Positions 747 through 7,471 of a stretch of 64,000 bases of DNA are shown piece by piece. Source of the DNA: Phreatobacter sp. (GTDB lineage: Bacteria > Pseudomonadota > Alphaproteobacteria > Rhizobiales > Phreatobacteraceae). Made by a program: the position numbers and the translations under genes. Location of the stretch: contig NZ_JAPZTZ010000023.1 in the NCBI RefSeq assembly GCF_027532945.1, forward strand, positions 1-64,000. The letters are read 5' to 3'. Position 1 is the stretch's first letter; each line of letters starts with the position of its first letter. The notes under the pieces were generated by a model that had not been told where the DNA came from, made no database searches, and saw only the letters and a list, made by a program, of their open reading frames with translations.

Positions 747-1289
747 TCAGGCGGTGGCGGTCTTGAGGACCTTGCCGACCTTCTCCTTGACCGGCTCGAT
801 GGTCTCGGTGGCGGTCTTCTGGGCGAGGGCGGTGAGATCCTTGCCCTGGGCCTGCATGGTCTCGAAGGCCTTGCGGACGAAGGCGGTCTGCAGCTCGATC
901 ACCTCGGCGACCGACTTGGCGCCCATCAGGTCGCGAGCATGGTCGAAGCTCGCGTTCATGTTGGTGCGGGCGGCCTCGATGCTCTTCAGGTGGAAGTCCT
1001 TCATGCCGGCGGAGGCGGTGACGTAGGTGTCCTCGACGAGGTCCGTGGTCTCCTCGGCAGCGGCCTTCATCTTGGCGTAGCCGTCCTTCATCTGTGCGAC
1101 CGCCTTGTCGGCGGCCTCACGCATGGCGGCCGGGACCTCCATCTTGGAGAGGTCGAAGGCGGCGCCGTCGAACTTCGGCATTTCGAACTTGGGCATCTCG
1201 AACTTCGTCATGTCGAAGGTCGGGAAGGGGAAGACCTGGGCGGCGGTGGCCGGCTTCTCGGTCTTGGGGGCTTTGGCGGCCTGGCTCAT
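747..1289 (-). CDS. Phasin family protein (PHA granule-associated)
   Basis: The protein has 180 residues from the ATG at 1289, which has AGGA about 10 bases upstream; the reading frame is open further upstream but that part does not look like protein. After a Lys/Pro-rich leader comes a repeated FEMPKFEMPKFD motif (about residues 25-40). A long amphipathic helical region follows with the phasin-typical pattern (FDHARDLMGAKSVAEVIELQ, then FVRKAFETMQAQ) and an amphipathic C-terminus. Phasins coat polyhydroxyalkanoate granules and limit their size. A second phasin lies 160 bases upstream on the same strand. The spacer between them holds a TGC-rich inverted pair resembling a PhaR operator, so expression may respond to polymer accumulation. 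Confidence 0.9.
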   Translation of the reverse strand: MSQAAKAPKTEKPATAAQVFPFPTFDMTKFEMPKFEMPKFDGAAFDLSKMEVPAAMREAADKAVAQMKDGYAKMKAAAEETTDLVEDTYVTASAGMKDFHLKSIEAARTNMNASFDHARDLMGAKSVAEVIELQTAFVRKAFETMQAQGKDLTALAQKTATETIEPVKEKVGKVLKTATA

Positions 1290-1412
1290 AGTGGGCAATC
1301 CTCGCGGGGAGCCTTGGCTTTGTAGCCGCCGGACCACTTCCCCGCTGGAGCCGGGCCGGCGCCGGGACGCGCGCTGGCGCCATCCCAATGCCGGATGCTC
1401 TATCAAGTTTGG

Positions 1413-1445
1413 TTGTGCATTGCAACAAACTATTGCATCGCACAA
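1413..1445 (-). promoter_or_regulatory. TGC-rich inverted repeat pair, candidate PhaR operator of the phasin gene
   Basis: The 13-mer TTGTGCATTGCAA at 1413-1425 is repeated in inverted orientation at 1433-1445 (TTGTGCGATGCAA on the minus strand, 11 of 13 matching). Each contains a TGCNNNGCA-like core. PhaR repressors of PHA-producing proteobacteria are known to bind TGC-rich sites with this type of core in phasin promoters. The pair lies 124-156 bases before the downstream phasin ATG. Assignment to PhaR is inferred; no phaR gene is in the window. Confidence 0.5.
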
Positions 1446-1449
1446 ATCA

Positions 1450-1830
1450 TCAGACCGGTTCTGTAGGATCCGCCAACCCGCCCTTGGCGGCCTTGCCGAG
1501 TTCGCGCGCCTGTTCCTCCATGGTCTTCAGCTGTTCCTTTAGGAAACGCTGCTGAATTTCCATCACCTCGGCCATGTCGCGGGCCTGAACGAGGCGTTGG
1601 GCATGTTCGAAGCTGGCGGCGACATTGGTCTCGGCGAAGGAGATGGCCTTGCGCCCGACCTCCTGGGCACTGGCCTGTACCGTGCCGGCGGAGGTTTCCA
1701 TGGCCGAGACAGTGCGCTGCGCCGCGCCGACAAAGCCATCGAAGGCCTTGCGCGCCTGTTCCACGCTCTTCTCGGCGAATTCCCGCATTTCCTGCGGAAT
1801 TTCGTAGCCGCCAGGGGCCTTGCCGCTCAT
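1450..1830 (-). CDS. Phasin family protein
   Basis: This 126-residue protein is almost entirely helical and shows the phasin_2 pattern: REFAEKSVEQARKAFDGFV near residue 16, AMETSAGTVQASAQEVGRKA in the middle, then SFEHAQRLVQARDMAEVMEI and FLKEQLKTMEEQARELGKAA. The ATG at 1830 has GGGAGG seven bases upstream. It precedes a second phasin gene on the same strand, but the 160-base spacer with a palindromic operator suggests separate promoters. The predicted role is to bind the PHA granule surface. The presence of two phasins implies an active PHA storage metabolism, although no PHA synthase is in this window. Confidence 0.88.
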   Translation of the reverse strand: MSGKAPGGYEIPQEMREFAEKSVEQARKAFDGFVGAAQRTVSAMETSAGTVQASAQEVGRKAISFAETNVAASFEHAQRLVQARDMAEVMEIQQRFLKEQLKTMEEQARELGKAAKGGLADPTEPV

Positions 1831-1914
1831 GCAAACCTCCCGAATCGCTCGCAGTCGCCTGCCGCAGGGGCATCCTAAGCCCCGGCCGGCAGCCGACGGA
1901 AGCCTCGGAAAGGA

Positions 1915-2748
1915 CTACGCGCGGCCGGGACGTTCGGATGCAGGGGGCGACGAGGCCTGGCGCGCCAGCTCGGCCCTGAGTGCCGCAAGTTCCTCCATCA
2001 CCGCGTCGAGGCGGCGAGCAACGTCCGTGGCGTCGCCCGATGCGGTTGCGGCGGCGGCCTTGTCCTGGGCGGCATCGGTATCGAGCGCCGTCACCACGAC
2101 ACCGATGAAGAGGTTCAGCGCCATGAAGGCGGAGATCACCATGAACAGGATGATGACGAACCAGCCGAAGGTGAATCCCTTCTCGGTGAGCGGCTTGACG
2201 ATGCCGTTCGACCAGTCGTCGAAGGTCATGGCCTGGAACAGCGTGTAGGCCGAGGCGCCGAGCGAACCGAACTGGTCAGGCAGCGCATCGCCATAGAGCT
2301 TCGTCACCACCACGGCGAAGACGTAGAAGATGATGCCGAGCAGCAGACCGATGGAGCCCATGCCGGGCATGGCGGTGATGAGGCCGCCGACCACGCGCCT
2401 GAGCGAGGGGATGGCGGTGATCAGCCTCAGGACGCGCAGGACGCGCAGCGCCCGCAGCACTGACAGGCTGTCGGTCGCCGGCACCAGGGCGATGAGGACG
2501 ACGAAGAGGTCGAACAGGCTCCAGGGATCGCGGAAGAAAGCACCGCGGCGCACCGCGATGCGGGCGACGAGTTCGGCCACGAAGATGCCGAGGATGACCG
2601 TGTCGATGGCAACCAGGACCGAGCCGAAGCGGCTCATCGCTGTCGGGCTCGTCTCCAGGCCCAAAGTGATCGCATTGACCACGATGAGGGCAATGATGAC
2701 GCGCTCGAAGCGCGGGTTCTCGATGAGACGGCGCAACGTTTCGATCAT
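1915..2748 (-). CDS. Bacterial voltage-gated cation channel (NaChBac/NavAb family) with a DDWSN selectivity filter
   Basis: The protein of 277 residues has the single-domain six-helix plan of prokaryotic Nav channels. S1 to S3 occupy about residues 16-90. The S4 voltage sensor (about 95-110) carries arginines at every third position (R99, R102, R105, R108). S5 covers about 131-150, and a pore helix with the filter TFDDWSN follows at 175-181, then S6 (about 193-222). A C-terminal heptad stretch (about 243-262) would form the usual tetrameric coiled coil. Four subunits make one inner-membrane pore. The filter differs from the sodium-type TLESWS: the key glutamate is aspartate and the next residue is also aspartate, as in the calcium-selective NavAb variants made in the laboratory. 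Calcium or mixed selectivity is therefore a reasonable inference, not proven. Confidence 0.9.
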   Translation of the reverse strand: MIETLRRLIENPRFERVIIALIVVNAITLGLETSPTAMSRFGSVLVAIDTVILGIFVAELVARIAVRRGAFFRDPWSLFDLFVVLIALVPATDSLSVLRALRVLRVLRLITAIPSLRRVVGGLITAMPGMGSIGLLLGIIFYVFAVVVTKLYGDALPDQFGSLGASAYTLFQAMTFDDWSNGIVKPLTEKGFTFGWFVIILFMVISAFMALNLFIGVVVTALDTDAAQDKAAAATASGDATDVARRLDAVMEELAALRAELARQASSPPASERPGRA

Positions 2749-3007
2749 GGCGCGGCGTATGGCTCGGGAGTTGTGGAGGGACGCAGGTGACCGGCTACCA
2801 CGGACCCCTTGACTACCGCCACGGAACAGATGTCACAGGTCGCCATGGTCGCGCGCCAAGGTTAACCCTAATCGGCGGTTGACGCTTCGTGAGCCCCGCC
2901 GCGCCGTGGACCTTTCGGCTCTGTTCCGACACAATCCATCAACACATCCTTCACCAATGGGCCGCGCCGGTGGCGCCGGCCCATCTCCTGTCCACGGGAT
3001 CGACCGC

Positions 3008-6000
3008 ATGACGTCTTCGTTCCCCAGCCCGTCCACGATCCTGTCCGAGCCCGAGGTCGCGCGCCTCGTGGCCGAGCCGGGCCCGTGGTGGCTGTGGACG
3101 GCGGATGCCGCGCGTCTGGTGGCGGCCAACACCACCGGCGCCCGCGCCATGGGGGCGACCGGCGTCGGCCCGGCGCTGGAGCGCACCTACTCGACCAGCC
3201 ACGCCTTCGCGGGCCAGGTGGCGCGGCTCGCTCCGAGCCTGCCGGCCGATGGCACGCCGCGTCAGGAGCGTCTGCGCATCGCTGGCCGCTTCGGGTCGGA
3301 AAGCGTCACCGCCGAGGCCTTTCGCATCCGTGCCGGGGAGGTCAGCCTCCTTGCCGTCCGCATCCCGGCCCTGCGCCGTGGCACGCCGCGCGAGGCGGTG
3401 CTCGGCTTCGTTGCCGACCTGCGCCTGCCGGCCCTCGCCTTCACGGCGGACGGCGCCCCCCTGGCGGCGAGCGATGCCTCCCATCCCCTGGCCGGTGCGG
3501 CACTTCGCGACCTCGTCGGCCCCGCCCATGACCAGTTGACCGCGCAGCTTGCGGCCCATGGCCGGGCCGTCGTCGATCTCGTCAACGGCCCCATGACCGT
3601 CATTGCGGTTCCCGGCACGGGCGTGCTCCTGGCGCTGCCCGCGCCCATCTCGGCCGATCAGGCGCCGACGGGCCTCAGGCTCGTCGCCGGAGCGCCAGAG
3701 GCACCGGCGCAGAAGATCACCCCGGCCGCAGACGCGCCGGTGGTGGAAGAGCCAGCCGCACCGCAGCCGGTCGTCGCCGAGACTGAAGCCACCGAGCCGG
3801 TCGTCGAAGAGCCCGTGATCGAGGCTACGGCCCCGGATGAAGCGCCGGCGGCTGCCTCGGAAGCGTCCGAGCCTGCGACCCCGCCCGTGGCTGAGCCGCC
3901 TGCCGCCGATACGATCGCCGACGAACCGGCCGTCGTGGCCGAAACCATCGCGAGCGCCGAGACTGCACCCACCGACACGGTCGTGGCCGATGTGCCTTCG
4001 GCCGATCTCAGTGTTGCCCCGGCCGCCGTGACGGAGGAGCCGGAGGAGGACACGTCGCTCGCGCCGCCTCAGCGCTTCGCCTGGAAGATGGATGGCGAGA
4101 CCCGCTTCCACGGGATTTCCCCGGACGAGGTCGCCGGCCCCGCCGGGCTGACGCTCGACGAGGCCGTGGCCCGCTACGGCATGGACCCCGATGGTGCGCT
4201 CAGCCGCGCCGTGACCGCCCGCCGCCCCTTCAGCGGCGTGCCCGCGCTCTGGCCGCTCGGTCTCGGACGCCGTCGCCTTGCCGTGACGCTCGCGGCCTTC
4301 CCTGCCCTGCGCGACGGAAGCTTCCAGGGCTATGCCGGCTTCGGCCTCGTGGTCGAGGAAGCCGCGCCGGCGATTGCCGATGCAGCGTCAGAGACGGCCT
4401 CCGGGCAGACGCCCGTAACGGTCGTCGCGGACGAGGCTCCGGTGATCGACGAGACGATCACCCAGGAGCCGATCACCGAAGAGCCGATCACCGAAAAGCC
4501 TATCGATGACGAGGCCGCGACCACCGAGGTGGCGGTGGTGAGCGAGGCCCTGGCCGACGCGACGTTGCACGAGGCATCGGAAACGGTGGCCGAGCAGGCC
4601 CAAGAGGCCCTGCCCGAAACCGGGACCCCGGAGGCGATGCCTGTTGCGGGCGTTGCGGAGGCTGCTGCCGAGGAGGTCACGGCCGGCGAGGATTCGTCGC
4701 AGACTCCCGACCTGCCGTCCGCGCCGGACGCGGCGGTGGCTGAGGCCGACCATGCCGCCCTGGCGGTCGAGACGCCGGAGGTTACCTCCGAGACGTCCGA
4801 CACCACCACCGAGGCTCCTGCTCCCGACGCTCCGACTGCCGAAACGGACGCCACGGCCGAGCCGCGCCCTGCCGGTGACGCAAGGCCGATGTTGACCGTC
4901 GTCACGACCCCGCCCAATGTCGTCGCCCTGCGCAGCACGGTCGGGCAGGACCCGAAGCGGCCCGGCCTGTCGCCAGGCGAGCGCAATGCGTTCCGCGAGA
5001 TCGCGCGAGCGCTGGGCGTGCGCACCGAGGACGGCACCGCGGAGACCGGTCCCGCCGCTGCGGCGCCGCTGCCGCCGCCCGCGGAACAGGCGCGCGAACC
5101 GGTGGTCGCACCTCTCGCCCCGACCTCGTCGGATGTCCCCGCTCCTGCGGCCGACGAGGCCCGCCCGACCGAGATCGCAGACGCGCCTTCCGTCGCTCCG
5201 GCCGATGCCGAGGCGTCCGACCAGGAGGCGCCTGCCGAGGAGACGCCTGCCAAGGAGACGCCCGCCGAGGATGTCCCCGCCGCAGCGGCGCCCGTGGCCT
5301 ATGTGGCATCCGGTACGCCGCACGGCCCTGTCCCCAGTGCCTTTGCCGGCGGCGGCGAGCCTTCACAGGATGCCGCTGCGCTGCTGGACAAGGTGCCGGC
5401 CGGCCTCGTCGTCCATCGCGGCAATGCCGTGCTCTTCGCCAACCGCACCCTGCTCGACTGGATCGGCTTCGCCTCGGCGACGGAGCTGGAGGATGCCGGC
5501 GGCGTGGCGCGCCTCTTCGCCGGTGGTCCTGACGACCATGCCGGCGCCGTGGCACTGACCACCCGGACCGGAGAGGCCGTCGCCGTCGACGCGCATCTCT
5601 CCCGCATCGCCTGGGGTGGCGAGGCCGCCTTTCTCTTCACGCTCACCCGCCACGTCGCCGACCCGCAGGCCGAGGCGGAGTCGACCACACTCACCGAGCT
5701 GCGCGGCCGCCTCGACGAGGTCGAGCAGATCCTCGACACGGCCACCGACGGCATCGTCATCGTCAATGCCGACGCCTCCATCGAGAGCATGAACCGCTCC
5801 GCCGAGGCGCTGTTCGGCTACGAGGCCGCCGAGGTGAAGGGCCGATCCATCACCGCGCTCTTCGCGCCCGAAAGCCACCGCTCGGCGCTCGACTATTGCG
5901 ACGGGCTGCTCTCGAACGGCGTCGCCAGTGTGCTCAACGACGGCCGTCAGGTCATCGGCCGGGTGAAGCAGGGTGGCCTCATCCCGCTCTACATGACCAT

Positions 6001-6823
6001 GGGCCGCACGGGACCTGCCGCACGACCGAAGCTCGCCGCCGTCTTCCGCGACATGACGCATTGGAAGAAAGCGGAGGAGGACCTCATCGCCGCCAAGCGC
6101 CAGGCCGAGCGGGCCTCGTCGCAGAAGTCGGATTTCCTCGCCAAGATCAGCCATGAGATCCGCACGCCGCTGAACGCGATCATCGGCTTCTCCGAGGTGA
6201 TGATGGAGGAGCGCTTCGGCCCCATGGGCAACGAGCGCTACCGCGACTACCTCAAGGACATCCACGCCTCCGGCGGCCATGTCCTGTCGCTGATCAACGA
6301 CCTGCTCGACCTCTCCAAGATCGAGGCCGGCAAGCTGGAGCTGTCCTTCACCAGCGTCGACCTCAACGACATGATCCAGTCGAGCGTGGCGATCATGCAG
6401 CCCCAGGCGAACCGCGAGCGCGTCATCATCCGCTCGTCGCTGCAGCCGCGCCTGCCGAACGTCGTCGCCGATTCCCGCTCGCTGCGGCAGATCGTGCTGA
6501 ACCTCCTCTCCAATGCCGTGAAGTTCACCCCGGCCGGCGGCCAGATCATCGTCTCGACCGGTCTGTCGGACCTCGGCGAGGCGGTGCTGAGGGTGCGCGA
6601 CACCGGCATCGGCATGACCGAAACCGAGCTGAAGGCCGCCATGGAGCCGTTCCGCCAGGTGCTCACCGCCAATCCGCGCGGCGCCAAGGGCACCGGCCTC
6701 GGCCTGCCGCTGACCAAGGCGCTGGTGGAGGCCAACCGCGCCTCCTTCGCCATCTCCTCGACCCCCAACCAGGGCACGCTGGTGGAGGTGGTCTTCCCGC
6801 CGACGCGGGTGCTGGCGGAATAG
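3008..6823 (+). CDS. Large PAS-domain sensor histidine kinase, PdhS/PleC/DivJ type
   Basis: The chosen ATG gives 1271 residues; an in-frame start 129 bases upstream exists, but that extension looks non-coding. The N-terminal part (about 10-225) is PAS-like, beginning around PWWLWTADAARLV. Very long Ala/Glu/Pro/Thr-rich stretches (about 230-350 and 455-775) flank a short globular piece. Two PAS-like segments follow, at about 788-880 and 897-1020. The HisKA box has phospho-accepting H1049 in SHEIRTPLNAIIGF, then the HATPase motifs NLLSNAVKF, DTGIGM and GTGLGLPL. The region after the H-box (RFGPMG, DLLDLSKIEAGK) is typical of alphaproteobacterial kinases acting on DivK and PleD. No transmembrane segment is evident. 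It probably controls cell-cycle or polarity signalling. It converges with vapC one base past its stop. Confidence 0.85.
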   Translation: MTSSFPSPSTILSEPEVARLVAEPGPWWLWTADAARLVAANTTGARAMGATGVGPALERTYSTSHAFAGQVARLAPSLPADGTPRQERLRIAGRFGSESVTAEAFRIRAGEVSLLAVRIPALRRGTPREAVLGFVADLRLPALAFTADGAPLAASDASHPLAGAALRDLVGPAHDQLTAQLAAHGRAVVDLVNGPMTVIAVPGTGVLLALPAPISADQAPTGLRLVAGAPEAPAQKITPAADAPVVEEPAAPQPVVAETEATEPVVEEPVIEATAPDEAPAAASEASEPATPPVAEPPAADTIADEPAVVAETIASAETAPTDTVVADVPSADLSVAPAAVTEEPEEDTSLAPPQRFAWKMDGETRFHGISPDEVAGPAGLTLDEAVARYGMDPDGALSRAVTARRPFSGVPALWPLGLGRRRLAVTLAAFPALRDGSFQGYAGFGLVVEEAAPAIADAASETASGQTPVTVVADEAPVIDETITQEPITEEPITEKPIDDEAATTEVAVVSEALADATLHEASETVAEQAQEALPETGTPEAMPVAGVAEAAAEEVTAGEDSSQTPDLPSAPDAAVAEADHAALAVETPEVTSETSDTTTEAPAPDAPTAETDATAEPRPAGDARPMLTVVTTPPNVVALRSTVGQDPKRPGLSPGERNAFREIARALGVRTEDGTAETGPAAAAPLPPPAEQAREPVVAPLAPTSSDVPAPAADEARPTEIADAPSVAPADAEASDQEAPAEETPAKETPAEDVPAAAAPVAYVASGTPHGPVPSAFAGGGEPSQDAAALLDKVPAGLVVHRGNAVLFANRTLLDWIGFASATELEDAGGVARLFAGGPDDHAGAVALTTRTGEAVAVDAHLSRIAWGGEAAFLFTLTRHVADPQAEAESTTLTELRGRLDEVEQILDTATDGIVIVNADASIESMNRSAEALFGYEAAEVKGRSITALFAPESHRSALDYCDGLLSNGVASVLNDGRQVIGRVKQGGLIPLYMTMGRTGPAARPKLAAVFRDMTHWKKAEEDLIAAKRQAERASSQKSDFLAKISHEIRTPLNAIIGFSEVMMEERFGPMGNERYRDYLKDIHASGGHVLSLINDLLDLSKIEAGKLELSFTSVDLNDMIQSSVAIMQPQANRERVIIRSSLQPRLPNVVADSRSLRQIVLNLLSNAVKFTPAGGQIIVSTGLSDLGEAVLRVRDTGIGMTETELKAAMEPFRQVLTANPRGAKGTGLGLPLTKALVEANRASFAISSTPNQGTLVEVVFPPTRVLAE

Positions 6824-6824
6824 C

Positions 6825-7226
6825 TCAGTCCGGCGAGACCAGGGCGAGCGTCGGAAAATAGGTCCGATAGCGCGCCGGATCTCGGGTCAACAGGGGCCAG
6901 CCGCGAGCAACGGCGTGGGCACCGATGAAAAAGTCGGGCAGAACGCCAGTCCGGACACCACCCGCGCGCCGATAGGCCTGGAACGCTTTCCCCGCCACGA
7001 ATAGGGCCTCGCGAGGTATCGGATCGACAACGAGGCCGACCTCTCCGATGGTCGCGTCGACCTCGTCGATCCCGGCAAAGCGCACCGACAGTTCGGCGTA
7101 AACCACATCGTTGATCGCAACGAGACCGTCGGTCAGCGAAAGCGCAAGGCGGGCCGCGCTCCAGGCTGCCCAGAGCGGATCGTCGGTGACGATGTCCAGC
7201 AGGACATTCGTATCGACGAGCATCAT
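6825..7226 (-). CDS. vapC: PIN-domain toxin (VapC-like RNase)
   Basis: The protein of 133 residues opens with [11 protein letters not shown], the first acidic motif of PIN nucleases. A conserved Glu (AELSVRF) follows near residue 44, and the DFFIGAHA motif with [10 protein letters not shown] gives the remaining acidic residues. PIN toxins of VapBC modules cleave tRNA or rRNA with a bound metal ion until neutralised by the antitoxin. The start overlaps the stop of the upstream AbrB-type antitoxin in an ATGA arrangement, the typical coupled toxin-antitoxin layout. A second ATG three bases downstream is equally possible as the start. Confidence 0.87.
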
Positions 7227-7471
7227 TCGACCGGATCACCGCGTGTCAAAGCCATGACTTCGTCAGTGCTCATGCCGGGACCGGCGATGCCGCGGATTCG
7301 GGCCACACGTTCGGCGGCGGTCCGGCGCGTGGCCGCGGGGGCCTTGCTCATGATGATTTCACCAGCCGAGCCGCTGGTGAATTCCACCTTGCTGCCGGGG
7401 ACTATGCCGAGCGCGTCGCGAACCCGCTTGGGGATCGTCACCTGGCCCTTCTGCGTCACGGTCGTCGCCAT
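7223..7471 (-). CDS. vapB: AbrB/MazE-type antitoxin (VapB-like)
   Basis: This 82-residue protein has an N-terminal swapped-hairpin DNA-binding domain of the AbrB family ([20 protein letters not shown], then PGSKVEF), about residues 4-45. A basic linker and an acidic C-terminal tail follow and would bind and block the PIN toxin encoded directly downstream with a 4-base overlap. Such antitoxins also repress their own promoter, presumably in the stretch between 7472 and 7644. The convergent kinase gene and divergent trpS set the limits of this two-gene unit. Confidence 0.87.

Follow-up and report, generated by a model that had tools for sequence, protein, structure and literature searches.

A native NavAb-like bacterial channel with a CavAb-like TFDDWSN selectivity filter in Phreatobacter and its relatives

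The window, which is the whole stretch of 64,000 nucleotides analysed in this study, comes from a Phreatobacter-group alphaproteobacterium and contains, at positions 1915-2748, an open reading frame of 277 amino acids. The gene lies on the minus strand, which the sequence-only reading had not given, with its ATG at 2748 and its stop codon at 1917-1915, and the starts of its orthologues coincide. The protein matches the Pfam Ion_trans family at 7.8e-41 (140 bits, cut-off 25), and no NCBIfam model matched it. A sequence search of the PDB returned human CaV3.2 as its top row (1.5e-64, summed over several domains), and the other best rows were CavAb and NavAb chains (3.9e-64). The genome's second Ion_trans gene, a K+-channel-like ORF with the motif TTVGYGD, was set aside.

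Downstream of the channel are two phasin genes (747-1830, minus strand), and divergent from it is a histidine kinase gene (2879-6823, plus strand) whose product combines PAS domains with an extended N-terminal region rich in Ala, Pro and Glu. At 6825-7471 (minus strand) lies a toxin-antitoxin pair, in which the gene for a PIN-domain protein overlaps that for a MazE-type antitoxin. The PAS/histidine-kinase gene and the phasin genes are kept in five Phreatobacter-group loci (the window and L014-L017). No neighbour cluster was common to all 12 loci compared, and thus no partner gene is proposed; none of the neighbour genes at these loci points to Ca2+. A consensus promoter scan of 1400-3100 found no promoter, and the sole terminator-like site from the scan of this region lies inside the gene and was rejected as being at chance level.

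The AlphaFold2 monomer model (77 aligned relatives) has a mean pLDDT of 92.0 and a pTM of 0.68. The predicted parts, all on the minus strand, are the voltage-sensor helices S1, S2 and S3 at residues 12-32, 35-67 and 75-88 (together 2485-2715), S4 at residues 93-112 (2413-2472), a linker helix at residues 114-125, S5 at residues 127-152 (2293-2370), pore helix P1 at residues 163-174 (2227-2262), pore helix P2 at residues 179-189 (2182-2214), S6 with its cytoplasmic extension at residues 195-236 (2041-2166) and a C-terminal helix at residues 239-266 (1951-2034). The selectivity filter T175-F-D-D-W-S-N181 is encoded at 2206-2226 (minus strand). The four S4 arginines named in the sequence-only reading (R99, R102, R105 and R108) are all present and are invariant across the 77 aligned relatives. 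The C-terminal coiled coil that it had claimed is also predicted here, from the helix and from its heptad pattern, in which Leu, Ile, Val or Met make up 75% of the a and d positions at the best register, a value reached by 39 of 10,000 shuffles. The Ion_trans match, the six helices with a P1-filter-P2 pore, the S4 arginines and the predicted coiled coil are those of a NavAb-like BacNav, and the gene product is confirmed as a single-domain, six-helix voltage-gated channel of that group. Foldseek gave CavAb (5klb) as the best row for the model (E 1.8e-15), and NavAb and CavAb entries tied in VIA-align (Z 20.5 to 20.0). Thus the fold supports the channel type and cannot separate Na+ from Ca2+ channels.

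The filter was compared with those of the channels of known structure. F160 of the query aligns with residue 160 of 6juh and the alignment is ungapped through the filter, so the NavAb numbering is unshifted; residues 175-181 lie within the filter of the CavAb and NavAb chains, at the NavAb residue numbers first proposed for them. The CavAb chains 4ms2, 5klb, 5klg, 6juh, 6ke5 and 6keb read TLDDWSN in their alignment letters, which is the TLESWSM of NavAb with E177D, S178D and M181N. The TFDDWSN of the window is identical at six of the seven residues: T175, Asp177, Asp178, W179 and an Asn at position 181, where a CavAb-type filter has Asn or Asp, are all present, and the sole difference is Phe176 for Leu176. 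The parallel with CavAb drawn in the sequence-only reading therefore holds and is closer than claimed, although the nearest engineered filter is TLDDWSN and not the TLDDWSD that had been cited. CavAb also shares the fold and frame of the 277-residue channel, with about 41% of residues identical along the entire chain, but is an engineered NavAb, whereas the natural channel has F176, K185, L187, K190 and an extra G191 after P2.

Other filter types fit less well. TLESWxxG is the motif definition of the Na+-selective BacNavs (PMC4225499), and the corresponding residues here are TFDDWSNG. NavAb and the NavAb-like BacNavs with TLESWSM resemble the query channel in architecture, S4, coiled coil and phylogenetic group, but carry the TLESW Na+-selectivity motif that it lacks. 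CavMr, reported in 2020 as a native prokaryotic Cav (PMC7041947; PMC7041941), has the heptapeptide TLEGWVD, as assembled from PMC7041947 and PMC12919392. It is likewise natural, single-domain and prokaryotic, with a Ca2+ preference of the kind proposed here, but it requires Gly4 and Val6 in its filter and is an AnclNav, whereas the query has Asp178 and Ser180 at these positions and belongs to the NavAb-like group (PMC7041947). Thus the 277-residue channel is a BacNav by structure and descent, is outside the Na+-selective TLESW class and is not of the CavMr type.

The occurrence of the filter was surveyed at several taxonomic levels. Ten of the 12 genomes searched in the genus had a match, and all ten matches carried TFDDW; one genome (G009) encodes both a TFDDWSG channel (L007) and a TLESWSM paralogue (L013). 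The presence of TFDDW in every matching genome of the genus and in other genera indicates that it is no isolated misread. In the order, 224 of 397 genomes matched at E<=0.001, and the best 150 matches listed included 107 TLESWSM and 13 TFDDW channels, ten of the latter from the window's genus and three from one other family. Among 85 channels at the best 80 of at least 560 confirmed named loci, 11 had TFDDW, and their carriers were Phreatobacter, Rhabdaerophilum, Enterovirga, and Beijerinckiaceae or Hyphomicrobiales assemblies. When both sets were pooled, TFDDW made up 24 of the 235 matches listed, or 19 of 225 distinct sequences. The two sets overlap in at least five identical protein pairs. 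Four relatives in the genus group of the window (L005, L007, L008 and L009) are letter-identical to proteins of named records, namely L014 from Rhizobiales bacterium Ga0077556 and L015-L017 from Phreatobacter sp. In a sample of the class, 91 of 385 genomes had a channel at E<=1e-40. The DNA pattern FQxxTxDDW, with motif position 4 left partly free, was found in two of these 385 genomes, the window's and G639, which has a divergent channel with the filter TFDDWIE. In the phylum sample it was found in two of 398, the window's and G287, a member of the clade described below. The filter is thus rare and old, not common.

With the filter columns masked, 18 TFDDW rows formed one clade, both in a quick tree of 113 rows (SH-aLRT 97) and in a careful tree of 67 rows (bootstrap/aLRT 100/99). 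For the latter, 46 of the 113 rows had been dropped, namely long branches, the two L233 rows, and TLESWSM or other rows that resembled one another. A larger group (98/95) encloses the clade and includes TLESWSM, TLDGWS[GSA], TLDAWSD, TLEGWVD and TLEDWAA channels, which indicates a filter-diverse region of the tree. The tree was rooted on NavAb and was built without named AnclNav sequences (CavMr, NavPp); the clade is placed in the NavAb-like group and outside AnclNav because it is nested among TLESWSM channels with NavAb as the root. A Roseococcus channel (L091) with the filter TLDDWAN has as its partner, at 100/100, a channel with TLESWSE, far from the TFDDW clade, and this pairing suggests that its DDW filter is likely a separate gain. 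The Roseococcus channel lacks Gly182 in the alignment.

All 19 distinct members of the clade share T175, F176, D177, D178, W179, G182, K185 and L187. At position 180, 18 members have Ser and one has Ala, and position 181 is divided between Asn (11 members) and Gly (eight), so that about half of the clade has Gly where CavAb has Asn181. F176, D177 and D178 were found in 19 of 19 clade members and in 0 of 155 TLESWSM sequences, a count that shows constancy and is no test, since the two groups are defined by the filter. K185 and L187 lie outside this definition and were likewise found in all 19, compared with 0 and 2 of the 155 TLESWSM sequences. Clade-fixed columns were taken as those with a residue in at least 90% of the clade and in at most 15% of the 155 TLESWSM sequences. 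Eleven were identified (94, 111, 176, 177, 178, 185, 187, 190, 209, 222 and 223), and those independent of the grouping include K185 and L187 in P2, K190 just past it, and M209, L222 and D223 in S6. The dN/dS values of eight pairs ranged from about 0.05 to 0.29, and the TFDDW channels are under purifying selection.

Our reading, which we hold at a probability of roughly 0.6, is that the gene encodes a native homotetrameric voltage-gated NavAb-like BacNav whose CavAb-like filter would admit Ca2+ preferentially on depolarisation, and which may thereby provide physiological Ca2+ entry. The analogy with CavAb gives good support for a channel that conducts calcium or mixed cations, because all three CavAb substitutions are present, fixed in the clade and under purifying selection. 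In the proposed mechanism, S4 with R99, R102, R105 and R108 would shift with depolarisation and open the S6 gate. The four D178 carboxylates would form a ring at the pore mouth (Spafford's "beacon", HFS+1), and the four D177 carboxylates at the HFS site would lie beneath it. The change of Met181 to Asn or Gly would remove a residue that favours monovalent ions in NavAb. Hydrated Ca2+ would then bind serially and move on by knock-on, as proposed for CavAb. F176 would contribute only its backbone carbonyl, and no block is expected from it; L176F in NavAb created no divalent block (PMC10349818), and the same paper notes Phe at 176 in some BacNavs and AnclNavs. Published mutants of NavAb itself back every step of this scheme. 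S178D alone raised the Ca/Na permeability about 100-fold (PMC10120453, citing Tang 2014), the three substitutions of CavAb together gave a PCa/PNa of about 400 (PMC10761118), and M181A mutants were described as non-selective, with about 10-fold Ca2+ selectivity (PMC12919392).

Several observations hold the calcium reading at this level. First, natural channels with acidic filters are known that behave otherwise. NavPp (TLEDWTD) has Glu at filter position 3 and three acidic residues, prefers Na+ (PCa/PNa 0.308) and is blocked by Ca2+, and its authors concluded that charge alone is insufficient for Ca2+ selectivity (PMC7041947). NsvBa (TLDSWGS) lacks Asp at position 4 and is non-selective; Asp at the HFS site alone accompanies the lost selectivity, and when an LDDWADG filter was grafted into this channel, divalents passed and so did K+ and Rb+ (PMC4225499). 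Extra aspartates alone are thus no guarantee of calcium selectivity. Secondly, residues 175-192 carry a net charge of -1 in 18 of 19 clade members and -1 in 137 of 155 TLESWSM sequences, so the filter region is no more negative than theirs, because K190 offsets the extra Asp. Third, no Na_Ca_ex antiporter domain was found in the window's genome by a search that matches 11 of 14 control genomes, and a matching Ca2+ export route was therefore not found there. Finally, eight of the 19 distinct clade members carry Gly and not Asn at 181, and the neighbour genes give no hint of Ca2+.

The principal alternative is a channel that is either mixed-cation or blocked by Ca2+, in which the DD pair would bind Ca2+ and the pore would fail to reject monovalents; it would conduct Na+ and K+ along with Ca2+, or conduct Na+ and be blocked by millimolar Ca2+. 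NavPp and the NsvBa graft behave in this way, Asp for Glu at the HFS site loosens selectivity (PMC4225499), and the clade-fixed K190 balances the local charge. We nevertheless consider it rather unlikely, since NavAb is the closest scaffold and responds to S178D and to the triple change with the roughly 100-fold and 400 values given above, and since NavPp is an AnclNav, a group apart from the NavAb-like channels among which the TFDDW clade is nested. Another reading is that the channel is tuned to a different divalent, such as Mg2+ or Mn2+, with Ca2+ as one among its ions; it could fit the double ring, which, being all aspartate, would not by itself be specific for Ca2+, but the preference of CavAb-type filters for Ca2+ in the cited studies, together with neighbour genes that suggest no other metal, makes this highly improbable. 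The least probable reading, and one to which we give very little weight, is that the native context preserves Na+ selectivity despite the aspartates. The voltage sensor and scaffold are of the Na+-channel type and the relatives around the clade are TLESWSM channels, but E177, S178 and M181, which make NavAb Na+-selective, have all been changed, and each change is in a direction that lowers Na+/Ca2+ discrimination in published mutants.

A 2026 paper describes CavMr as the only identified prokaryotic Cav (PMC12919392), and the CavMr filter works differently from that of CavAb. No native DDWS filter was found in the full-text literature searched, which excludes subscription papers, and the channel papers matched concern engineered filters. 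We see an even chance that the TFDDW channels represent a second, independent origin of bacterial voltage-gated calcium channels, within the NavAb-like group and by the substitutions that the engineers of CavAb made, in an old, conserved clade of freshwater-associated Hyphomicrobiales, with a further origin in Roseococcus. One Phreatobacter abstract and one "pond" record give rise to the idea that the habitat may be freshwater with little Na+. Nature may have reached the engineered CavAb solution unaided. If the clade conducts Ca2+, CavAb would have a natural counterpart for which it can serve as a model, and a branch with TLESWSM relatives would offer a natural setting in which to follow the switch from Na+ to Ca2+. 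The two channels of G009 lend themselves to comparison within one genome. Should the clade not conduct Ca2+, it could help to explain why DDWSN is enough in the NavAb scaffold but not in others. CatSper1, a one-domain Ca2+ channel, carries a beacon aspartate at each subunit position (PMC10120453), as is proposed for the query, but it is part of a eukaryotic heterotetrameric sperm channel and is no close relative.

Other unusual filters were noted among the channels surveyed. NavAb-like channels of six loci (L110, L138, L101, L103, L078 and L088) have Asp at the HFS site followed by Gly (TLDGWS[G/S/A]) and lie near the TFDDW clade in the tree. Three NavAb-like loci (L033, L068 and L073) carry the CavMr heptapeptide TLEGWVD, possibly another convergent calcium-type filter, and two TLEGWVD genes are adjacent in L033 and likewise in L073. 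Adjacent channel genes with unlike filters occur in L048 (TLEDWAA and TLEGWNE), L083 (TLEAWAD and TLEGWNE) and L233 (TFDDWIE and TLEGWAE), and the neighbouring L201 (TLEGWSD) and L222 (TLESWSM) on one G327 contig also have unlike filters.
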